This document shows positions 5,342 to 17,829 of a DNA stretch of 52,784 nt, piece after piece (positions within the stretch are counted from its first letter, which is position 1; each line of letters begins with the position of its first letter). The position numbers were made by a program, and so were the translations under genes. Source of the stretch: Holophagaceae bacterium (GTDB lineage: Bacteria; Acidobacteriota; Holophagae; Holophagales; Holophagaceae); the NCBI GenBank assembly GCA_017859995.1, contig JAFJUR010000001.1, positions 1 through 52,784 of the forward strand, read 5' to 3'. The notes beneath the pieces are model-generated. The model ran no database searches and was not told where the DNA came from. It worked only from the letters and a program-made list of their open reading frames with translations.

Positions 5342-6753
5342 CACTGGCCTCCCATGAGTTGCCGAACATCGGTGAAGTGTCCCGTCACGGCGGCGGCGGC
5401 GGCCATGCCGGGACTCACCAGGTGGGTGCGGCTGCCGCGGCCCTGGCGGCCCTCGAAGTTGCGGTTGCTGGTGCTGGCGCAGCGGACGCCTTCCTCCAGC
5501 CGGTCGTCGTTCATGCCGAGGCACATGCTGCACCCGGGCTGCCGCCACTCGAAGCCCGCGGCGAGGAAGATGCGGTCCAGGCCCTCAGCCTCGGCCTGGC
5601 GTTTGACCAGGCCGGAACCCGGCACCACCAGCGCCCGGAGGCCGGGAGCCACCTTGCGGCCCTTCGCCACGGCGGCGGCTTCGCGCAGGTCCTCGATGCG
5701 GCCGTTGGTGCAGGAGCCGATGAACACCGCCTGAAGCGCGATGTCTTGGATGAGCGTGCCGGGCTTAAGGCCCATGTAGTCGAGGGCGCGGAGCATGGCC
5801 TGGCGGTCGTCGGCGGAGGTGGCCTCGGCGGGGTCGGGCACGCGGCCTCCGATGTCGGTCACCCACTGGGGACTCGTGCCCCAGGTGACCTGGGGGGCCA
5901 GGGCGGAGACGTCCAAGGCGACTTCGGTATCGAAGGTCGCCGCCTCGTCGGAGCGCAGGCTCTGCCAGTGGGTGAGCGCGGCGTCCCACAGGTCGTCCTT
6001 GGGGACCATGGGACGGCCTTCGAGGTAGGCGAAGGTGACGTCGTCGGGCGCCACGAGGCCTGACCGCGCGCCGCCCTCGATGCTCATGTTGCAGAGGGTC
6101 ATGCGGCCCTCCATGGACAGGGCGCGCACGGCGGGGCCGGTGAACTCCATGACGTGTCCGGTGCCGCCCGCGGTGCCGATGCGGCCGATGAGTGCCAGGG
6201 CCAGGTCCTTGGCCCCGAGGCCGGGGGGCAGGGCGCCCAGGAAGCGCACCCGCAGGTTCCTGGATTTGCGTTGAGGCAGGGTCTGGGTGGCCAGCACGTG
6301 CTCGACCTCGCTGGTGCCGATGCCGAAGGCCAGGGCCCCGAAGGCGCCGTGGGTGCTGGTGTGGCTGTCGCCGCAGACGATGGTGGTGCCCGGTAGGGTG
6401 AAGCCTTGCTCGGGGCCCACCACGTGGACGATGCCCTGGCGGTCGTCCAGCAGGGGCAGGTAGGGCACGCCGTAGGCCTTCACGTTCGTCTCGAGTTCCT
6501 CCACCTGCAGGCGGCAGGTCTCGTCGGCGATGCCCTTCTCGCGATTCAGCGTGGGCACGTTGTGGTCGGCCACGGAGAGGATGGCGTTGGGCCGGCGCAG
6601 GGGCCGCCGGGCTTCCCGCAGTCCTTCGAAGGCCTGGGGGCTGGTGACCTCGTGCACGAGGTGCCGGTCGATGTAGAGCAGGCAGGTGCCGTCGGCGCGG
6701 GTCGCCACGAGGTGGTCATCCCAGATCTTGTCGTAGAGGGTGCGGGGCGTCAT
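5341..6753 (-). CDS. leuC: 3-isopropylmalate dehydratase large subunit LeuC
   Basis: A 470-aa aconitase-family enzyme of leucine synthesis. The [4Fe-4S] ligands are visible as C348 in [12 protein letters not shown] and C408/C411 in GCSMCLGMN, and [10 protein letters not shown] (127-136) carries active-site residues. The ATG at 6751-6753 overlaps the stop of the upstream LysR gene by four bases, with GGAGG eight bases ahead. The gene order lysR-leuC-leuD places the regulator and its probable targets on one transcript, with leuA and leuB on the divergent one. Confidence 0.97.
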
Positions 6754-7670
6754 GGCTGCTTCCTCCGGGTGAGGGACGGGGTGCGGCTGAAGTCGGTGGC
6801 CCGGATCTGCTGGAGGAAAGCCCGGGCCGCGTGGGACATGGCCTCCTCGCGCCGGGTGACGATCCGGATGAGCTTCTCCACCTGCAGCTCCTTCACGGCC
6901 ACTTCCACCAGGCGACCCTGGCGGATGCCTTCGCGCACCGTCATGCGGGGCAGGATGGCCAGGCCCGCGCCGAGGGCGACAAAATCCTGGATGGTGGCGA
7001 GCGAGCCCAGCTCCATGGTGATACGCAGGGGTGTGCCGCAGCGGGCGAAGAGGTCGATGATGGCGTTGCGGGTGGGCGTGAGGGCGTTGTGGGCCACGAA
7101 GGTCTCCCGGCCCAGGACCTCGAGGCCGACCTCCTTCCGCCGGGCCAGGCGGTGATTCGGCGGCACCACCAGCACCATGTGGTCGCGGAGGATGACCTCG
7201 CTCACCAGCTCCGGGTGCATGGGGTCGTAGGACACGAAGCCGATGTCGAGGCGTCGCTCCAGCACCTCGGCCGGAATGCGCTCCGAGCTCTGGCGGTAGG
7301 CCTGGATGCGGATGGCCGGGTGGGCCTGCTGGTAGGCCAGGAGTACTCCGGGCAGGAGGAATTCCGACACGCTCTCATTGGCCCCGATGTTGAGCCGGCC
7401 CTGCTGGAGGCCCTTCAGCGCGCCGAAGGTGTCGGTGATCTGCTTGCGCAGGTCGAGCATCCGCTGGGCCAGGGGCAGCAGGGTGGTGCCGGCGTCCGTG
7501 AGGGTGCCGCCCTTGGTGGTGCGGTCGAAGAGGGTCTCACCCAGATCCTCTTCCAGGCGCTTGAGGGCCAGGCTCACGGCGGGCTGGGTGCGGAAGAGGC
7601 GCTCCGCGGCTCGCGAGAAGCTCTTCTCCCGCGCCACCACCAGGAAGGTTTCCAGCTGACCCAGGTCCAT
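6750..7670 (-). CDS. LysR-family transcriptional regulator of the leu locus
   Basis: A 306-aa LysR-type regulator: winged helix-turn-helix at about 3-62 ([21 protein letters not shown], written here in part: [20 protein letters not shown]) followed by a two-lobed effector-binding domain (about 90-295). AGGAG precedes the ATG at 7668-7670. It is the first gene of an operon with leuC and leuD (4-base overlap) and diverges from leuA, so by position it most likely controls leucine synthesis and itself, perhaps sensing a pathway intermediate. The effector cannot be read from sequence. It is not obviously orthologous to LeuO. Confidence 0.9.
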
Positions 7671-7708
7671 GACGGCTCCTTCGTGAAGTCTAGGGTTTAA
7701 AGAATAAC

Positions 7709-7722
7709 TTATGGAATCATAA
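7709..7722. promoter_or_regulatory. candidate LysR operator in the leuC/leuA divergent spacer
   Basis: TTATG-GAAT-CATAA is a perfect 5-bp inverted repeat around a 4-base centre. It contains the T-N11-A layout bound by LysR proteins. It sits in a strikingly AT-rich patch (about 7690-7742) in an otherwise GC-rich locus, 39 bases upstream of the LysR start and 86 bases upstream of leuA. A weak -10-like TATTAA (7736-7741) faces leuA. Confidence 0.55.
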
Positions 7723-7808
7723 AAAAAATTAAATGTATTAATGGCTCGACCCGCGCCATCGTCGGGTGATCCCTCCGGCCCGGCCGGTCCTAAGGAGCTT
7801 CCCGAACC

Positions 7809-9362
<1,554 letters not shown>

Positions 9363-9366
9363 TGAC

Positions 9367-9483
9367 ATGGCCGAAGCCGCTCCTGAACCCAAAGCCGACA
9401 CGCCTGACCGGAAAGCCCTGAGCCCCGCGGCGCCGGGACAGGCCGACGAGACCGACCCCGACCAGTACCTCTGGGGGGTGTGA
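9367..9483 (+). CDS. 38-aa ORF between leuA and leuB, unknown
   Basis: A small ORF that begins four bases after the leuA stop, with AGGTGA about five bases ahead of its ATG, and ends two bases before the leuB ATG at 9486. The product is acidic, Pro/Ala-rich and predicted to be disordered, ending in DPDQYLWGV, an abrupt hydrophobic tail. Codon third positions are about 78% G or C, in keeping with the flanking genes, which favours real coding. I recognise no family. It could be a short partner or tether of LeuA or LeuB, or a translated spacer that couples leuB to leuA. Confidence 0.55.
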
Positions 9484-9485
9484 GC

Positions 9486-10565
9486 ATGGACGCCCACATC
9501 ACAGTCCTGGCAGGCGACGGCGTGGGTCCGGAGGTCACCGCCGAGGCCGTGGCCTGCCTGTCCGCCGTGGCGGAGCGCTTCGGCCATCGGTTCACCTTCC
9601 AGGATGCCCTCATCGGCGGCGCCGCCGTGGACGCCTCGGGCGATCCGCTGCCCGAGGCAACCCTGACTTCCTGCCGCGCCAGTCACGCGGTGCTGCTGGG
9701 CGCCGTGGGCGGCCCGGCCTGGGACCGCCACCCGCGGGCGCAGCGGCCGGAATCGGGCCTCCTGCGCCTGCGCAAGGCCCTGGGCCTCTTCGCCAACCTG
9801 CGCCCGGTCACCGTGCATCCCGCCCTGGAGGATGCCTCGCCCCTGAAGCCCGAGGTGGTCTGCGGCACCGATCTGATGTTCGTCCGGGAGCTGTCGGGCG
9901 GCCTCTACTTCGGCGAACCCCGGTCCTACTCGGACGACGCGGCGGTGAACACGCTGCCCTACACCCGGCCCGAGGTGGAGCGCGTGGCGAAGGTGGCCTT
10001 CGACCTGGCTTCCCGCCGCCGCAAGCGCCTGGTCTCCGTGGACAAGGCCAACGTGCTGGAGACCTCCCGCCTCTGGCGCAAGGTGGTGGATGACCTCGCC
10101 CCCGCCTATCCGGATGTGGCGGTGCAGCACGCCTACGTGGACAGCTTCGCCATGGCGCTGATCACCCGGCCCCGGGACTTCGACGTGGTGCTCACGGAGA
10201 ACCTCTTCGGCGACATCCTCAGCGACGAAGCGGCGGTGCTGGCCGGATCCCTCGGCCTTCTGCCCTCGGCGAGCCTGGGCGGATCCGTGGGGCTCTTCGA
10301 GCCCATCCACGGATCGGCGCCGGACATCGCCGGGCAGGACCGCGCGAACCCCATCGGCACCATCCTGTCGGCGGCCATGCTGCTGCGTCATGGCCTGGGC
10401 CTTGAAGCCGAGGCCGCGGCCGTGGAAGGCGCGGTGGACGCGGTGCTCCGGAGTGGCCACGGAACCGGCGACCTCCAGGGCGCCCGCCACCCGCAGGGCA
10501 CCCGCGCCCTGGGGACCCGCATCCGCGAGGGGATCCACGCCCCCGTCGCCGCCACCCCGCGCTGA
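9486..10565 (+). CDS. leuB: 3-isopropylmalate dehydrogenase LeuB
   Basis: A 359-aa NAD-dependent beta-decarboxylating dehydrogenase converting 3-isopropylmalate to 2-ketoisocaproate. It begins [32 protein letters not shown], the K-A-N-V-L segment ([14 protein letters not shown]) and [14 protein letters not shown] are conserved substrate, cofactor and metal-binding blocks, and [16 protein letters not shown] is the NAD-loop region. A run of Gs (9474-9479) serves as ribosome site for the ATG at 9486; a GTG at 9480 is in frame but sits inside that site. Confidence 0.96.
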
Positions 10566-10579
10566 GCCAGGAGCCCCCG

Positions 10580-10714
10580 ATGCCCATCCCTTCCGCCACC
10601 CTCGCATGGACCGCCGTTCCCCTCGTTGTGATCGGGGTGGTGATCGGATTCGTGCGGACCATCCGGCCTGTGGCCGTCAGGCCCATGGGCCTGGTGCTGT
10701 GGCTGGCGGGCTAG
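10580..10714 (+). CDS. 44-aa Val/Leu/Ile-rich ORF, candidate ilv leader peptide
   Basis: AGGAG at 10569-10573 is six bases ahead of the ATG, so translation is well supported. Of 44 residues, 18 are Val (9), Leu (5) or Ile (4), including the run PLVVIGVVIG at 14-23, reminiscent of the LVVISVVVIII run of the enterobacterial ilvL leader. It lies 14 bases after leuB and just ahead of an intrinsic terminator that precedes ilvD. A perfect 16-bp palindrome (10678-10693) lies inside it, and a copy of the terminator arm overlaps its stop. This layout suits ribosome-mediated attenuation. The alternative is a genuine small one-helix membrane protein, since such segments are also rich in these residues. 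Confidence 0.65.
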   Translation: MPIPSATLAWTAVPLVVIGVVIGFVRTIRPVAVRPMGLVLWLAG

Positions 10715-10743
10715 GGGCCCCGCGATCGGAATCCACCGACCCC

Positions 10744-10777
10744 GGCCCCGCACCCACCCAGCGGGGCCTTTCCTTTT
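10744..10777 (+). terminator. intrinsic terminator/attenuator ahead of ilvD
   Basis: GGCCCCGC (10744-10751) pairs perfectly with GCGGGGCC (10761-10768) across a 9-base loop, followed by TTTCCTTTT (10769-10777). A second copy of GGCCCCGC lies at 10716-10723, two bases after the leader-ORF stop, and its GGGGCC part (10714-10719) can also pair with the terminator 5' arm. Mutually exclusive foldings are therefore possible, as needed for attenuation. Confidence 0.65.
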
Positions 10778-10795
10778 CGAACCACGAGGCGGGCC

Positions 10796-12493
10796 ATGAC
10801 ATCCGAGGACGCACCCCTGAACCGACGCAGCCGGGTCATCACCCAGGGCGCCCACCGCGCTCCGGCCCGGGCCATGCTGAAGGCCATCGGCTTCACGGAC
10901 GAGGATCTGGCGAAGCCCATCATCGGCATCGCGAACACCTGGACCGAGATCGGCCCCTGCAACCACCACCTGCGGGAACTGGCCGGGCGCGTGAAAATCG
11001 GCGTGCGGGCCGCGGGCGGCACGCCCATGGAGTTCTGCACGGTATCGATCAGCGACGGCATCACCATGGGCACGGAAGGCATGAAGGCCTCCCTGGTGAG
11101 CCGCGAAGTCATCGCCGATTCCATTGAGCTGGTGGCCCGCGGGAACGCCTTCGATGGCCTCGTATGCCTCTCGGGGTGCGACAAGACCAACCCCGGCGTG
11201 GCCATGGCCCTGGCCCGCCTGGACATCCCCGGGCTGATCCTCTACGGCGGCTCCACGGCGCCGGGCCACTGCGACGGCAAGGACCTGACGGTGCAGGATG
11301 TCTTCGAGGCCGTGGGCGCGCACAGCTCCGGGAAGATGGATGACGCCGGCCTGAAGCGGGTGGAGGACGCGGCCTGTCCCGGCGCCGGCGCCTGCGGCGG
11401 CCAGTTCACCGCCAACACCATGGCCGCCAGCCTCGAACTCATCGGCCTCAGCCCCATGGGCCTCAACGGGATTCCCGCGGAGGATCCGAAGAAGGGCGAA
11501 GCCGCCGAGGCCTGCGGCCGCATCGTCATGGACCTGCTGCGCGCCGACCTGCGGCCCCGCGCCATCCTCACCCGCGAAGCCTTCGAGAACGCCATCGCCG
11601 CGGTGGCGGCCACGGGCGGCTCCACCAACGCGGTGCTGCACTACCTGGCCCTGGCCCGCGAGGCGAATGTGCCGCTCACCATCCATGATTTCGATCAGGT
11701 CAGCGCCCGCACCCCGCTGCTGGCGGACCTCAAGCCCGGTGGCCGTTTCACGGCCCCGGACCTGCATGCGGCCGGCGGCATCCGGCTGGTGGCCCGGCGC
11801 CTGCTGGAGGGCGGCAAGCTGCATGGTGCGGCGCGCACGGTCACGGGGCGCACCGTGGCCGAAGAACTCGCCACGGCCCAGGAAACGCAGGGGCAGGAGG
11901 TGGTGAGGCCCTTCGCGAATCCCATCAAGGCCAGCGGCGGCCTCGTGATCCTCAAGGGCACCCTGGCGCCCGAGGGCTGCGTCATCAAGGTGGCGGGCCA
12001 CGAGCGCCTGCACCACACGGGCCCGGCCCGGGTCTTCGACACGGAGGACGCGGCCTTCGCCGCGGTGCAGGCCGGCCGCATCGAGCCCGGGGACGTGGTG
12101 GTGATCCGCTACGAGGGCCCCCGCGGCGGCCCCGGCATGCGCGAGATGCTGGGCGTCACCGCGGCGCTCATGGGCGCCGGGCTGGGCGAGACCGTGGCCC
12201 TGCTCACGGACGGCCGCTTTTCGGGCGCCACCCGGGGGTTGATGGCAGGCCACGTGGCGCCCGAAGCCGCCGTGGGCGGACCCATCGCGCTGGTCCGCGA
12301 GGGAGACACGGTGGTCTTCGACATCCCCACGCGGCGCCTGGACCTGAAGGTGGCCGAGGATGAGCTGGCGCGGCGGAAGGCCGCGTGGACCGCCCCGGCC
12401 CCGCGCTACCGCACCGGCGTCTTCGCCAAGTACGCCGCCACCGTGGCCAGCGCCTCGGAAGGCGCCGTCACGCTCGCCCAGGGCGGGAGGTGA
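10796..12493 (+). CDS. ilvD: dihydroxy-acid dehydratase IlvD
   Basis: A 565-aa Fe-S dehydratase common to valine, leucine and isoleucine synthesis, converting 2,3-dihydroxy-acids to 2-keto acids. The cluster-ligand segments are visible: IGPCNHH near 52-58, GCDKTNPG near 126-133 and GAGACGGQFTANTM near 198-211. The C-terminal GGPGMREML and TDGRFSGATRG blocks are also conserved. It is followed at two bases by ilvB. Its expression is probably set by the upstream attenuator-like element. Confidence 0.97.
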   Translation: MTSEDAPLNRRSRVITQGAHRAPARAMLKAIGFTDEDLAKPIIGIANTWTEIGPCNHHLRELAGRVKIGVRAAGGTPMEFCTVSISDGITMGTEGMKASLVSREVIADSIELVARGNAFDGLVCLSGCDKTNPGVAMALARLDIPGLILYGGSTAPGHCDGKDLTVQDVFEAVGAHSSGKMDDAGLKRVEDAACPGAGACGGQFTANTMAASLELIGLSPMGLNGIPAEDPKKGEAAEACGRIVMDLLRADLRPRAILTREAFENAIAAVAATGGSTNAVLHYLALAREANVPLTIHDFDQVSARTPLLADLKPGGRFTAPDLHAAGGIRLVARRLLEGGKLHGAARTVTGRTVAEELATAQETQGQEVVRPFANPIKASGGLVILKGTLAPEGCVIKVAGHERLHHTGPARVFDTEDAAFAAVQAGRIEPGDVVVIRYEGPRGGPGMREMLGVTAALMGAGLGETVALLTDGRFSGATRGLMAGHVAPEAAVGGPIALVREGDTVVFDIPTRRLDLKVAEDELARRKAAWTAPAPRYRTGVFAKYAATVASASEGAVTLAQGGR

Positions 12494-12495
12494 CC

Positions 12496-14223
12496 ATGCA
12501 AGAACCCGCTGCTGAGTTCACCGGCGCCCAGCTCATCTGGGAGAGCCTGCTGCGGGAAGGCGTGGACACGGTCTTCGGCTATCCGGGCGGCGCCATCCTG
12601 CCCGCCTACGACGCCCTGGTGGGCTACCCGATCCGCCACGTGCTGGTGCGCCATGAGCAGAGCGCCGCCCACATGGCCGACGGCTACGCCCGGGCCAGCG
12701 GCCGCACGGGCGTGGTGGTGGCGACTTCTGGTCCTGGCGCCACGAACCTCGTGACGGGCCTGGCCACGGCCATGCTGGATTCCACGCCCCTGGTGGCCAT
12801 CACGGGGCAGGTGGGCTCCGCCCTGCTGGGCACCGACGCGTTCCAGGAAGTGGACATCACGGGCATCACGATTCCCGTCACCAAGCACAACTACCTGGTG
12901 ACCCGCGCCGAGGACATCGTCCCGGCCATCCGGGAAGCCTTCGCCGTGGCCGGCAGCGGGCGGCCGGGGCCGGTGCTCGTGGACATCACCAAGGACGCCC
13001 AGCAGTCCCGGGCTGCGCTGGACTGGGACGCCGCTACGCCCCAGCGGCACCTGCGGCACCTGCCCCCGCCCCTGGATGCCGCCGTCCTCGCCCAGGCGCT
13101 GGAGCTCATCCGCCACGCCAAGCGGCCCCTGATCCTCGCCGGCCACGGCATCCAGATGGCCGGGGCCCGGGCCGAGGTGCTGGCCCTCGCCGAGCGCGCC
13201 GACATCCCCTTCGCCCTCACGCTGCTGGGGCTCGGTGCCGTGCCGGCCACGCACCCCTTGAGCCTCGGCATGATGGGCATGCACGGCGAGGCCTGGGTGA
13301 ACCGTGCCATCCAGGAGGCGGACCTGCTGCTGGCCTTCGGCATGCGGTTCGACGACCGGGTGACCGGCAAGCTGAAGGAATACGCCCCGAACGCCAAGAA
13401 GATCCACGTCGACATCGACGCCAGCGAGCTGAACAAGAACGTGCCTGTGGACGTGGCCATCGCTGGGGATCTGAAGGACGTGCTCCGGGCGCTGCTGCCC
13501 GACATCCCCGTGGCGGACCGCTCCGCCTGGCTGGGGGCGATCCGGGAATGGCGCGGGGATTCCGCCGTGCGCGACATCCAGAACCTCCCAGACGACGGCC
13601 ACCTCTACGCGGCCCACGTCATGCACGACCTCTGGAAACTCACCAAGGGCGGGGCCGTGGTGGTGACGGACGTGGGCCAGCACCAGATGTGGGAGGCCCA
13701 GTACTACAAGCACGACGGCGAGCGCAGCCTCGTCACCAGCGGCGGCGCGGGCACCATGGGATTCGCGCTGCCGGCGGCCATCGGCGCCAAGATCGCCCGG
13801 CCCGAGGCGGAAGTCTGGGTGGTGGCCGGCGATGGCGGCTTCCAGATGACCTTCGCCGAGCTGATGACCGCCGTTCAGGAAAACGTGAAGGTGAACATCG
13901 CCATCATCAACAACGGCTACCTGGGCATGGTCCGGCAGTGGCAGGCGCTGTTCTACGAAAGCCGATACTCGGCCACCCCCATCCTGTCGCCGGATTTCGT
14001 GAAGCTGGCCGACGCCTTCGGCATTCCAGGGCAGCGGGTGGAGACCCGCGCCGATCTCGCCGCGGCCGTGGGCCGGGCCCGGGCGGCCCAGGGACCGGCG
14101 CTCATCGAATTCAAGGTCGAGCAGGAGGACAGCGTCTATCCCATGGTTCCGGCGGGCGCGGCGCTGCACGACATGATCCGCCGGCCGAGCGCCCTGGCCG
14201 AGACCGGCTCGGACCCCGCATGA
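12496..14223 (+). CDS. ilvB: acetolactate synthase large (catalytic) subunit
   Basis: A 575-aa ThDP- and FAD-dependent enzyme making acetolactate or acetohydroxybutyrate. The N-terminal domain has VFGYPGGAILPAYD and RHEQSAAHMADGYARASG (with the ThDP-activating Glu), and the C-terminal domain has the ThDP/Mg motif GDGGFQMTFAELMTAV through to the INNG segment. AGGTGACC precedes the ATG. Its stop overlaps the regulatory-subunit ATG (ATGA), consistent with balanced synthesis of the two subunits. Confidence 0.97.
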   Translation: MQEPAAEFTGAQLIWESLLREGVDTVFGYPGGAILPAYDALVGYPIRHVLVRHEQSAAHMADGYARASGRTGVVVATSGPGATNLVTGLATAMLDSTPLVAITGQVGSALLGTDAFQEVDITGITIPVTKHNYLVTRAEDIVPAIREAFAVAGSGRPGPVLVDITKDAQQSRAALDWDAATPQRHLRHLPPPLDAAVLAQALELIRHAKRPLILAGHGIQMAGARAEVLALAERADIPFALTLLGLGAVPATHPLSLGMMGMHGEAWVNRAIQEADLLLAFGMRFDDRVTGKLKEYAPNAKKIHVDIDASELNKNVPVDVAIAGDLKDVLRALLPDIPVADRSAWLGAIREWRGDSAVRDIQNLPDDGHLYAAHVMHDLWKLTKGGAVVVTDVGQHQMWEAQYYKHDGERSLVTSGGAGTMGFALPAAIGAKIARPEAEVWVVAGDGGFQMTFAELMTAVQENVKVNIAIINNGYLGMVRQWQALFYESRYSATPILSPDFVKLADAFGIPGQRVETRADLAAAVGRARAAQGPALIEFKVEQEDSVYPMVPAGAALHDMIRRPSALAETGSDPA

Positions 14224-14819
14224 AAGGAGGTGCCATTCCCAAGGTTGCCGTGCCCCAGGTTTCCGCGCGCCAGGTTTCCGCGCCCCACGTCCTCGTGGTC
14301 TACACCGACGACGAGCCCGGCGTGCTCACCCGCGTGGCCTCGCTCATCCGCCGCCGGGGCTTCAACATCCACTCCCTCACGGTGGGGCCCACGGAGCGCG
14401 CCGGGCTGTCCCGCATGACCATCGTGGTGGACTCTGATGCCCCCATGGTGCGCCAGGCCGTGGAACACCTGCGCAAGCTGGTGAACGTGCTCGAGGTGCA
14501 ACAGCTGGGCGAGCGGCCCAAGGTGATCCGCGACCTGGTGCTGGTGCGGGTGGCGGCACGCCCGGAGACGCGCTCGGAGGTTCTCCAGCTGGCCCAGGTG
14601 TTCCGGGCCACGGTGGTCGACATCGCCGAGGACAGCCTGGTCATCGAGTGCACCGGCAGCCTCGACAAGATCGACGCGCTCGTCGACACCATGCGGCCCT
14701 TCGGCATCCTCGAGCTGGGCCGCACCGGCGCCGTGGCCATGGCCCGGGGCACCCGCAATCCACCTGCCGGAAGGGCGCCGCTGCCCCTGCGTACCGGCAC
14801 CGAGTCCATGTCCGTCTGA
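14220..14819 (+). CDS. ilvN: acetolactate synthase small (regulatory) subunit
   Basis: A 199-aa regulatory subunit with an N-terminal ACT domain (about 22-95: VLVVYTDDEPGVLTRVASL, then RRGFNIHSLTVGPTE) that binds valine in the family, and a C-terminal ACT-like half (about 100-175). The start is uncertain. ATG 14220 overlaps the ilvB stop, yet a near-perfect AAAGGAGGTG follows it directly inside the coding region, which could instead drive a rare ATT start at 14235. The N-terminal extension contains a 15-bp imperfect tandem duplication (14256-14286) encoding QVSA twice. Confidence 0.93.
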   Translation: MKGGAIPKVAVPQVSARQVSAPHVLVVYTDDEPGVLTRVASLIRRRGFNIHSLTVGPTERAGLSRMTIVVDSDAPMVRQAVEHLRKLVNVLEVQQLGERPKVIRDLVLVRVAARPETRSEVLQLAQVFRATVVDIAEDSLVIECTGSLDKIDALVDTMRPFGILELGRTGAVAMARGTRNPPAGRAPLPLRTGTESMSV

Positions 14820-14964: not shown

Positions 14965-15981
14965 ATGGCCGTCATCCACTACGACGCCGACCTCGGCCTC
15001 ATCCGCGCCCGCAAGGTCGCCATCCTGGGCTATGGCTCCCAGGGGCACGCCCACGCGCTCAACCTCCGCGACAGCGGCGTCCATGTCCGGGTGGGACTGC
15101 CCGCCTCGTCCAGCTCGAAGGCCAAGGCCGAAGCCCAGGGCCTCACGGTCACCAGCCCTGCGGAAGCGGCGGCCTGGGCCGACGTGATCATGGTGCTCAC
15201 GCCGGACACGGGGCAGGCCGCGCTGTACGAGGCCGCCATCGCGCCGCACCTGACACCCGGGAAGACGCTGATGTTCGCCCACGGCTTCAACATCCGCTAC
15301 GACTGCATCAAACCCCCCGCGGGCGTGGACGTGAGCCTGGTGGCGCCCAAGAGTCCGGGCCACCGAGTGCGGGAGGTCTTCGTGGAAGGTGCCGGTACGC
15401 CGGGTCTGGTGGCCGTCCACCAGGACGCCAGCGGCCAGGCCCTGGCGCTGGCCCTCTCCTACGCGGCGGCCATCGGCCTCACCCGGGCCGGCGTCCTGGA
15501 GACCACGTTCAAGGAGGAGACGGAGACGGACCTCTTCGGCGAGAAGGCGGTGCTCTGCGGCGGCGCCAGCGCCCTAGTGAAGGCGGGCTTCGAAACCCTG
15601 GTGGAGGCCGGCTACCAGCCGGAGATCGCCTACTTCGAGTGCCTCCACGAGCTGAAGCTCATCGTTGACCTGATGTACCGCGGGGGCCTCAGCTTCATGC
15701 GCTACAGCATCAGCGACACGGCGGAGTACGGCGACTACACCGGCGGACCCCGCCTGGTGACCGACCAGACCAAGGCCGAGATGCGGGAGATCCTGAAGGA
15801 GATCCAGGATGGCCGCTACGCCGCCGCCTGGATCGAAGAGAACCGGACCGGGCGCACCTGGTTCGAGGCCCAGCGCGCCGCGGACCAGAACCACCCCCTG
15901 GAGGTGGTGGGCCGGCAGCTGCGTCGCATGATGCCCTTCCTCGACCCGGTCGAGGCGCCGGTTGTGGCCTCCCAAAAATAA
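14965..15981 (+). CDS. ilvC: ketol-acid reductoisomerase IlvC (class I)
   Basis: A 338-aa NADPH- and Mg-dependent enzyme that isomerises and reduces acetolactate. The Rossmann loop [17 protein letters not shown] (22-38) and the conserved [21 protein letters not shown]-type metal block (here [15 protein letters not shown]) and [13 protein letters not shown] blocks are present, and the length is that of the short class I form. AAGGAG (14952-14957) precedes the ATG. It completes the pathway set but is separated from ilvN by the hairpin repeat. Confidence 0.97.
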
Positions 15982-16059
15982 TTAAATCAACAAATGAATG
16001 GGCATCCTGACTCAGGGTCGAATCCTTGAACCCGGTCACAGGACAGAGGCCCCAGAATG

Positions 16060-16091
16060 GGGGGGCGGCGGAATCCTTTCCGGCGCCCCCC
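16060..16091 (+). promoter_or_regulatory. strong hairpin directly ahead of a ribosome binding site
   Basis: Bases 16060-16073 pair with 16078-16091 (13 of 14 pairs, one G-G mismatch, 4-base loop), six of them a G6/C6 stack. The hairpin ends immediately before GGAGG (16092-16096), which serves the ATG at 16102. Such a position can hide or expose the ribosome site. An in-frame ATG at 16057 starts just ahead of the hairpin, so the hairpin could also be translated. Confidence 0.5.
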
Positions 16092-16101
16092 GGAGGCCCG
16101 G

Positions 16102-17829
16102 ATGGCCGAGTCCTTCTTTTCCACCGCGTCCAACCCCACCCTGCAGGGGTGGCAGGCCCCGGGCTCGCTGGATTTCCAGGCCGCCTTCCTGAGGGCCGGA
16201 GGCTGGGCGCTGCCCCGCACTGACGCCTTTCCGGACGCAGCCCAACTCCGGGCGCGGCTGCAGGAACTCAAGGCCTCCATGCGGGAGGGCGCCAAGATCG
16301 GGCTGGACCTGCGGGGCCTGCGGGACAGCGCCGACCACGTGATGGCCGCCGCCCGGGAGGCCGGCGTGGCCTTCCTGCTGCACACGGCTGAACTGCCGCC
16401 CTCCCTCGCCATGCTCCGGCACGCCAACATGCCCCGCCTGGTGGCGGTGCAGAATCCCGAGGAGGCCGCTCAGGCCAAGGCCGGCGGCGCCTCCGCGCTG
16501 CTCGCGCGGGCCTGTGATGTGGCGTCCCTCCGGCGCTTCGGCCTGCCCGTCATGGCCGTGGCCGACACGGAAGCCGAGGCGCGCCAGGCCATGGCCGACG
16601 GTGCCATCGGCCTCCAGCCCCGCACGCCGGGCCTGCTGGACGCCTCCCCGCTGGCCGCCTTCCGCACCCGCCTCATGGCCGGCCTGGATTCCATGGCCCA
16701 GGCCTTCGTCCGCCGCGGGGCCTGCACGCTGCCCCGCCTCAAGATCCGCAACCTCGACCTGGCCTATCCCATCCAGCAGGGCGGCATGGGCGTGGGCGTG
16801 TCCTGGGAGGGCCTCGCGGGCGCCGTCGCCAGCGCCGGCTGCGTGGGTCTGGTGTCGGCCATCGGCACTGGCTATCACGGCTCCGCCAATCCCAAGATGC
16901 GCCTGGGCCGCCCTGACGGCACCGACGCGCTGAATCCCCCCAAGGCCCTGGAATGGATCGTCCGCGCCGCGCGGGAGCGCTCCGGGGGCCGCGGCGCCGT
17001 GGGCGTGAACATCCTCTGCGCCATCGAAGGCTACGAATCCGCCGTGCGCGCCTCCATCGCCGGCGGCGCCCAGATGATCGTCTCCGGCGCCGGGCTGCCC
17101 CTGGCGCTGCCGGGCTATGTGGGCGACGCGGACGTGGCCCTGGTGCCCATCGTGTCCTCGGGCCGCGCCCTGAGCGTGATCTGCAAGCAGTGGCAGCGGA
17201 AGTACGACCGCCTGCCGGACGCCGTGGTGCTGGAGGGCCCCGAAAGCGGCGGTCACCAGGGCTTCAGCCACGACGGCTGCCTGGACCCCGCCCACACCCT
17301 GGAGAACATCCTGCCCGAGGTCATCGAGGAGCGGGACAAGTGGGGCGACTTCCCCATCCTGGTGGCCGGCGGCGTCTGGGACCACGCGGACATCCAGCGC
17401 TTCCTGGCCCTGGGCGCTTCCGGCGTGCAGATGGGCACCCGCTTCATCGGCACCTTCGAGTGCGACGCCTCGCCGATCTTCAAGGAGGTCATCCTCCGCG
17501 CCAAGGCCGAGGACATCGGCCTGATGAAGTCCCCCGTGGGCCTGCCCGCCCGGGGCGTGCGCACCTCCCTGCAGCGCAACATCGAGGCCGGCACCGCGCC
17601 CCAGGTTCGCTGCGTGAGCAACTGCCTGTCGCCCTGCGGCCACGGCAAGGGCGCCATGGCGGTGGGATACTGCATCGCCGACCGCCTGGCCGACGCCATG
17701 CACGGAAAGGAGGAGAGCGGCCTCTTCTTCACCGGCAGCAACGGCGCCAAACTCCGCGAGCTGGTGAGCGTCCGCGACCTCATCGAAGAGCTAACCCAGG
17801 ATCCAGGGCTGCAGCGGCTCTACGCCTGA
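16102..17829 (+). CDS. nitronate monooxygenase-family flavoprotein with an extra N-terminal barrel-like domain
   Basis: A 575-aa protein. The C-terminal about 360 residues are a clear NMO/FabK-type FMN TIM barrel: YPIQQGGMGVGVSWEGLAGAV, VNILCAIEGYE, IVSGAGLPL, EGPESGGHQGF (with the catalytic-type His), ILVAGGVWDH and QMGTRFIGTFEC, ending in a Cys-bearing CVSNCLSPCG block. Residues about 60-210 show a regular strand-helix series (IGLDL, FLLHT, LVAVQ, ALLAR, VMAVAD, IGLQPR) that looks like a decayed second barrel. Usual family length is 310-370 aa. Start 16102 has GGAGG; ATG 16057 is the in-frame alternative. Substrate unknown. Confidence 0.82.
   Translation: MAESFFSTASNPTLQGWQAPGSLDFQAAFLRAGGWALPRTDAFPDAAQLRARLQELKASMREGAKIGLDLRGLRDSADHVMAAAREAGVAFLLHTAELPPSLAMLRHANMPRLVAVQNPEEAAQAKAGGASALLARACDVASLRRFGLPVMAVADTEAEARQAMADGAIGLQPRTPGLLDASPLAAFRTRLMAGLDSMAQAFVRRGACTLPRLKIRNLDLAYPIQQGGMGVGVSWEGLAGAVASAGCVGLVSAIGTGYHGSANPKMRLGRPDGTDALNPPKALEWIVRAARERSGGRGAVGVNILCAIEGYESAVRASIAGGAQMIVSGAGLPLALPGYVGDADVALVPIVSSGRALSVICKQWQRKYDRLPDAVVLEGPESGGHQGFSHDGCLDPAHTLENILPEVIEERDKWGDFPILVAGGVWDHADIQRFLALGASGVQMGTRFIGTFECDASPIFKEVILRAKAEDIGLMKSPVGLPARGVRTSLQRNIEAGTAPQVRCVSNCLSPCGHGKGAMAVGYCIADRLADAMHGKEESGLFFTGSNGAKLRELVSVRDLIEELTQDPGLQRLYA

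Follow-up and report, generated by a model that had tools for sequence, protein, structure and literature searches.

The spacer between leuB and ilvD in the DNA analysed here very probably carries a ribosome-mediated transcription attenuator, which lies inside a leuAB-ilvDB-ilvC operon. This DNA, referred to below as the window, is a stretch of 52,784 nt and makes up a single contig (G000:C41) within a fragmented genome of the GTDB genus Geothrix (Acidobacteriota). An earlier note on the window had proposed a leu-ilv operon setting and an attenuator ahead of ilvD. The identities of leuA, leuB, ilvD, ilvB and ilvC were confirmed with NCBIfam models, and the attenuator interpretation is strongly supported by comparison across relatives, although the segment predicted to compete with the terminator differs from those named in the note, being GGGGCC at the stop codon of the leader. 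The operon genes and the leader reading frame are as follows (type A is the form found in the window, described below).

7809-9362, + strand: leuA, first gene of the operon (TIGR00973, 721 bits)
9480-10565, + strand: leuB, adjoining the leader on its 5' side and the source of read-through transcription (TIGR00169, 486 bits)
10569-10573, + strand: AGGAG, Shine-Dalgarno-like sequence of the leader ORF (from the sequence)
10580-10714, + strand: leader-peptide ORF of 44 codons, uninterrupted in 19 distinct sequences of type A without conservation at the protein level
10796-12493, + strand: ilvD, proposed as the first gene under attenuator control (TIGR00110, 688 bits)
12385-14223, + strand: ilvB frame (TIGR00118, 711 bits, matched from residue 46)
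14217-14816, + strand: ilvN-like frame, judged by eye
14965-15981, + strand: ilvC (TIGR00465, 423 bits)

The mechanical ORF start of ilvB is too early, as similarity to the enzyme begins at about residue 31.

Architecture of the leader region

The leader ORF begins 14 nt behind the leuB stop and is translated as MPIPSATLAWTAVPLVVIGVVIGFVRTIRPVAVRPMGLVLWLAG. Its coordinates and composition are those given in the earlier note, with Val, Leu or Ile at 18 of 44 residues (41%). The parts of the leader and of the RNA that follows it are listed below.

10622-10645, + strand: LVVIGVVI, a cluster of Val/Ile codons at which a ribosome may stall; its end is where the computed ON zone begins
10646-10690, + strand: stretch GFVRTIRPVAVRPMG, containing Val and Ile codons; a ribosome stalled here gives a low computed terminator probability (0.01-0.5)
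10678-10693, + strand: 16-bp palindrome CAGGCCCATGGGCCTG, kept only partly in relatives
10688-10714, + strand: conserved leader end GLVLWLAG-stop
10714-10719, + strand: region 2, GGGGCC, beginning inside the stop codon and complementary to the terminator 5' arm (putative antiterminator)
10726-10739, + strand: UCGG...CCGA, a small hairpin enclosed by the antiterminator and present in relatives in variant forms
10744-10751, + strand: region 3, terminator 5' arm GGCCCCGC, invariant in 33 sequences
10761-10768, + strand: region 4, terminator 3' arm GCGGGGCC, with 100% paired cells in 33 sequences
10769-10777, + strand: U-rich tail TTTCCTTTT (from the sequence)

The predicted terminator (10744-10768) is just as it had been described: a perfect 8-bp stem starts 29 nt past the leader stop and is followed by a T-rich tail up to 10777. 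The stem closes a 9-nt loop. The U-tract is modest, and in some relatives it is weak (GCTGACTTTC in L005). The site, with a loop larger than the scan maximum of 8 nt, is absent from the output of a simple terminator/promoter scan. The total fold energy of the leader region is ordinary (z -0.29) and uninformative. Two further segments had been put forward as key competing folds, a second copy of GGCCCCGC (10716-10723, two bases past the leader stop) and the 16-bp palindrome; both exist in the window, yet neither the copy nor the exact palindrome is conserved, and both were rejected in this role. The small hairpin takes the form UCGAA...UUCGA in L005 and L008 and UCGGG...CCCGA in some genomes in which leuB itself runs into the element.

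Ribosome-mediated attenuation is a textbook mechanism. In the window, RNA polymerase arriving from leuB would transcribe the leader, and a ribosome would initiate on the 44-codon ORF directly past the leuB stop. When Val- and Ile-tRNAs (perhaps also Leu-tRNAs) are charged, the ribosome would reach the stop codon and cover GGGGCC (10714-10719), so that the hairpin at 10744-10768 could form and transcription would stop at about 10777, ahead of ilvD. When charged Val- or Ile-tRNA is scarce, the ribosome would stall upstream, and GGGGCC would be free to pair with GGCCCC of the 5' arm, enclosing the UCGG/CCGA hairpin. This antiterminator pairing would block the terminator, and ilvD, ilvB and ilvC would be transcribed. 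The parts in the sequence, their conservation, their specific placement and the mutual exclusivity of the computed folds are shown below, and from these we infer translation, stalling, termination and the identity of the sensed amino acids.

Distribution of the element in Geothrix and its relatives

When a 401-base query was compared across the genus, positions 10688-10779 stood out as the most conserved stretch of the spacer. The conserved features are the leader end, the stop codon, the small hairpin and the terminator, while the start of the ORF is not conserved. A covariance model (R1) was built from 33 distinct copies (alignment A1) of the stretch from the leader stop to the terminator. 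Of 47 genomes of the genus, 31 contain matches to it above 54 bits, 38 such matches in total, and the next match scored 33.5 bits. Wherever the genes were mapped, all these strong matches had leuB in front of them and ilvD or ilvB after them. The element occurs in 31 of the 34 genomes with an orthologous leuB and in none of the 13 without that leuB. In the three leuB-positive genomes that do not have it (G035, G039 and G042), ilvB follows leuB almost directly, and we take the element to have been lost. The leu cluster of G035 (L090/L210) and of G042 (L212) has no leuA and runs from leuB straight into ilvB, the leuB tail and the attenuator being jointly absent. The 13 genomes with neither orthologous leuB nor ilv attenuator (e.g., G011, G020, G029 and G032) are nearly complete, and their branched-chain amino-acid synthesis has possibly been lost.

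Similar elements were found in the leuB-ilvD spacers of three more genera of the family (g4, g5 and g6). The spacers of G052, G053, G056 and G057 hold a Val/Ile/Leu-rich leader and a GC-rich hairpin, without an R1 match in the case of G057. A search with R1 of 16 more genomes of the class, from outside the family, gave no hit at E<=1e-4.

A conserved RNA structure before amino-acid synthesis genes could also belong to a riboswitch or T-box type element that works without a leader peptide. We regard this as barely credible, since an Rfam search of the window returned zero families at the gathering score, the conserved part measures only about 70 nt, and the frame that codes for the cognate residues is retained.

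The attenuators of the genus come in three forms. Type A, the form of the window, has a separate ORF behind leuB that ends like VLRLTG-stop or VLWLAG-stop; it stands alone in 14 genomes and together with type C in 7. Type B (7 genomes) lacks a leader ORF of its own: here the frame of leuB runs directly up to the attenuator, with ends such as ...LAVILP-stop, ...LDVILPS-stop and ...LPVILPT-stop, and the stop codon, region 2 and the terminator are all kept nonetheless. In type C the leader ends with VLIISGEVGA(P/S/F)-stop; this form is alone in 3 genomes and in tandem behind type A in 7.

Codons are kept where the leader peptide is not

The earlier note had named an alignment of this spacer across related genomes as a means of checking the attenuator. 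The outcome of this alignment favours attenuation: the leader ORFs vary in length and sequence and show no conserved protein, whereas Val/Ile/Leu codons stand at fixed places, the terminator is kept, and the competing stem appears in three structural versions. An uninterrupted ORF is present in 19 distinct sequences of type A and in 9 of type C, and the peptide is not conserved as a protein. Type A pairs of equal length show 338, 298 and 232 changes at the first, second and third codon positions, with no excess at third positions, and 511 nonsynonymous versus 145 synonymous changes. No Pfam match was found for the leader peptide.

The residue bias on which the earlier note had drawn is true for the window. 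On its own it says little, because leaders of relatives range from 19% to 41% Val, Leu and Ile and the window is the maximum of that range. The Val/Ile and Leu codons keep fixed distances from the stop. Counted from there, Val or Ile occupies codons -16 to -13 in 42-84% of type A sequences, with a peak frequency of 0.84 at -14; type C has V-L-I-I at codons -11 to -8, and most type B sequences have Val or Ile at -5/-4.

These comparisons also bear on whether the ORF encodes a real small protein, perhaps a membrane protein, next to a hairpin that serves as an ordinary intercistronic element for RNA processing or mRNA stability. The window ORF does contain a hydrophobic stretch, PLVVIGVVIGFV, which the note had mentioned as a possible membrane helix, and the hairpin does lie between two genes. 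However, the hydrophobic stretch is not kept in relatives (e.g., MMRQRPSSPTPAGSPSTADRFWIRTIGLGIVLRLTD), neither a Pfam match nor a third-position excess was seen, and the genomes in which the leuB tail takes the place of the ORF retain the stop codon, region 2 and the terminator. A small protein is therefore very improbable; a membrane protein in particular was rejected for lack of conservation, and the membrane-helix reading is unsupported.

Dependence of the predicted fold on ribosome position

The folding of the attenuator was computed with the ribosomal A site placed at each codon, and only the RNA ahead of the ribosome was allowed to fold. For type A, a ribosome at the stop codon gave a mean terminator probability of 0.99, and ribosomes at codons -12 to -9 gave 0.06-0.32; the corresponding values for type B were 1.00 at the stop codon and 0.29-0.36 at codons -6 to -4. 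Shuffling the segment from the ribosome to the 5' arm raised the probability to 0.78 (A) and 0.91 (B), and 0 of 100 dinucleotide group shuffles reached the observed values, although the 33 sequences are kin to one another and such shuffles overstate their independence. When the best range of codons was chosen anew for each shuffle, the observed 0.154 of type A compared with 0.746 (sd 0.075) and the 0.316 of type B with 0.783 (sd 0.113), and in both cases 0 of 40 shuffles reached the observed value.

The equilibrium fold of type C shows no switch, and the terminator is favoured with the ribosome at the VLII codons. Before the 3' arm has been made, a 10-bp antiterminator has a probability of 0.82-0.87 as long as the ribosome has not passed codon -8, and this falls to 0.17 by codon -6. 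The loss (codons -8 to -6) thus comes directly behind the VLII codons, and the contrast of 0.66 compares with 0.20 (sd 0.07) in shuffles. In each of the three forms, a GC-rich segment at the leader stop is predicted to pair with the terminator 5' arm. The predicted antiterminators are GGGGCC:GGCCCC in type A, GGGCCGA:UCGGCCC in type B and GGUGGGGGCC:GGCCCCGCACC in type C. For the sequence of the window, the computation favours the terminator when the ribosome stalls at the first Val codons of LVVIGVVI, and the switch appears only from the second VVI of the cluster onward. In these models, terminator and antiterminator would be mutually exclusive and switched by the position of the ribosome.

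Covariation contributes little here: the terminator arms are nearly invariant and so give no such evidence, and that in the small hairpin is slight. A self-complementary GGCCC..GGGCC element, a candidate for the separate 1:2 protector or pause hairpin that the classical trp-type layout (1:2, 2:3 and 3:4) has in its leader ORF, is kept in only part of type A. Overall, the attenuator goes beyond chance, because no part of the spacer is better conserved in the genus and because its switching exceeds all shuffles.

It could still be that the hairpin acts as a simple partial terminator and fixes the leuB:ilvD ratio, or that the leader aids reinitiation at ilvD, with no regulation in either case. 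A short ORF before a structural gene can indeed serve reinitiation (PMC4833913), but the antiterminator is conserved in three versions beyond what shuffles give, the leader stop lies 81 nt before ilvD with a stable hairpin in that gap, and longer distances are tied to attenuation in the same paper. An unregulated element of this kind is consequently quite improbable.

Related elements before thr and trp genes

The weaker R1 matches include putative attenuators before genes of other amino-acid pathways. Leaders with ITTNGTITNT, GITSGTTTTNT, GITTTTHT, ITTTTTGTH or MTTTTTYG stand before aspartokinase genes, a Thr leader with TTTTTTITG before homoserine kinase, and a Trp leader with WSWW before a protein with an anthranilate synthase I N-terminal domain (trpE). 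One Thr-type leader, ending MATMNHTTPAAPRGA-stop and followed by a hairpin and then an aspartokinase gene, lies in the same genome as the window (G000:C94:19324-19399; L080:1025-1100), and similar Thr-type leaders were seen in G015, G016, G018, G006, G030, G035, G040, G042 and other genera. At L083:757-820 (G068, genus g9), a Trp-type leader, MTCNWSWWPQGSGVGMGGLRS-stop, is followed by the hairpin GGCCCACC/GGTGGGCC and the protein with the anthranilate synthase I N-terminal domain. Three other weak matches (L084, L085 and L087) look like ordinary gene-end terminators. The match of leader residue to pathway, with Val/Ile/Leu before ilv, Thr before thr and Trp before trp genes, is the strongest argument for codon sensing.

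The pyrE attenuator of E. coli senses UTP through the coupling of transcription and translation, with no codon-specific stall. The element in the window might likewise respond to translation or coupling in general (polarity) rather than to specific amino acids, given that leader residues differ between species and that the leuB-tail forms use the upstream structural gene as pyrE uses rph. This is unlikely, because the cognate residues follow the operon in all three pathways and the Val/Ile codons keep a constant spacing from the stop, at positions where the fold is computed to switch.

Origin of the three forms

All 9 distinct type C copies have a promoter-like motif, TTGAC[A/T]-N17-NANACT, whose first base lies 37 nt before the ATG (31 nt in one copy, with a second ATG 6 nt on); within 110 nt, a promoter of this type was found in 0 of 19 type A copies. 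As the motif sits 37 nt before the ATG, the type C transcript probably begins at the AUG, and the type C leader is probably a promoter-borne, leaderless mRNA. A TTGAC box also lies about 35-37 nt before the leader ATG in the thr leaders L072, L075, L078 and L080, as it does in type C (e.g., L012:1381-1471), a spacing that implies leaderless mRNAs in both, judging by the motif.

In a LeuB+IlvB tree rooted on other genera, the type B genomes group with the element-less G035 in a clade that is sister to all the remaining genomes. Those with the tandem form share a clade with G004, and those with type C only form another. The g6 genomes have a promoter-borne leader ending VVVIISGEVGAP or VVVIISGEVGDP that closely resembles type C, which may suggest that the free-standing form is old.

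In the early-branching type B clade, it is rather likely that a short extra C-terminal tail of LeuB is itself the leader, and that ribosomes finishing leuB sense Val, Ile and Leu on behalf of the ilv genes. If so, a codon-specific attenuator with the tail of a metabolic enzyme as its leader peptide would be a new arrangement, and the leuB-tail, free-standing, tandem and operon-internal forms would show the movement of an attenuator within an operon.

Comparison with known attenuators

The leaders of Proteobacteria (ilvL, ivbL, leuL, thrL and trpL) share with the present element a short ORF rich in the end product, overlapping alternative hairpins and a terminator before biosynthetic genes, and Thr and Trp versions likewise occur in the Geothrix family. 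By contrast, the window element belongs to another phylum, lies mid-operon behind leuB without a recognisable promoter, and has only one clearly conserved upstream pairing segment, at the leader stop. In Actinobacteria, candidate ilvB attenuators have been predicted (PMC1262725), and a three-hairpin model exists for ilvBNC of C. glutamicum (PMC11857589). They too combine an Ile/Val/Leu-rich leader with a terminator before ilvB, but they stand upstream of ilvB operons, whereas the window element is operon-internal. Changes to leader codons had no effect in S. coelicolor (PMC1262725), which makes codon sensing there doubtful. The trpL leader of Sinorhizobium meliloti (PMC7298713) has an mRNA that starts with AUG, as seems probable for type C and the thr leaders; unlike the window element, it concerns Trp, is alphaproteobacterial and lies at the start of its operon. 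We consider the rph-pyrE attenuator of E. coli (Bonekamp et al. 1984, as cited in PMC6941894) to be the nearest precedent for the leuB-tail form. Both are intercistronic, and the leuB-tail form, like the pyrE attenuator, would be read by ribosomes on the upstream structural gene; what sets the leuB-tail form apart is that the Val/Ile/Leu codons sit in the leuB tail.

The survey of Naville and Gautheret (2010) contains almost no predicted Acidobacteria attenuator with an assigned function (PMC2965389). The literature search found no paper joining Geothrix with attenuators or Acidobacteria with branched-chain leader peptides; an earlier prediction in other Acidobacteria is possible, for instance in the broad survey of Lopatovskaya et al. 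2010, as cited in PMC4833913. The mechanism is known; new, as far as checked, are the family of elements, its position within the operon, the tandem arrangement and the leuB-tail form. The Geothrix family thereby gains a coherent set of putative attenuators for ilv, thr and trp genes, the window copy of which has no Rfam match, and the attenuator would account for a short ORF likely to be annotated by gene callers as a hypothetical protein. Because close genomes display promoter-borne, operon-internal, tandem and enzyme-built-in leaders, the evolution of an attenuator may be traced stepwise here.

Other genes of the locus

The leuC and leuD genes and a LysR-type regulator gene lie on the strand opposite to leuA, leuB and the ilv genes. 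The LysR-type gene (about 6750-7670, - strand) is divergent from leuA and upstream of leuC, and its product is likely the transcriptional control of the leu part. Its frame is included in an ORF of 1285 aa (6750-10607, - strand), the remainder of which is probably a GC-rich antisense artefact. No attenuator was seen before leuA and no R1 copy near it; that region is AT-rich and carries the divergent LysR-type gene. Behind ilvC, a 590-aa protein (16057-17829, + strand) combines a C-terminal nitronate monooxygenase domain with 230 N-terminal residues that have no Pfam match. Every well-covered genome of the genus has this protein in the same place after ilvC, with 86-96% identity.
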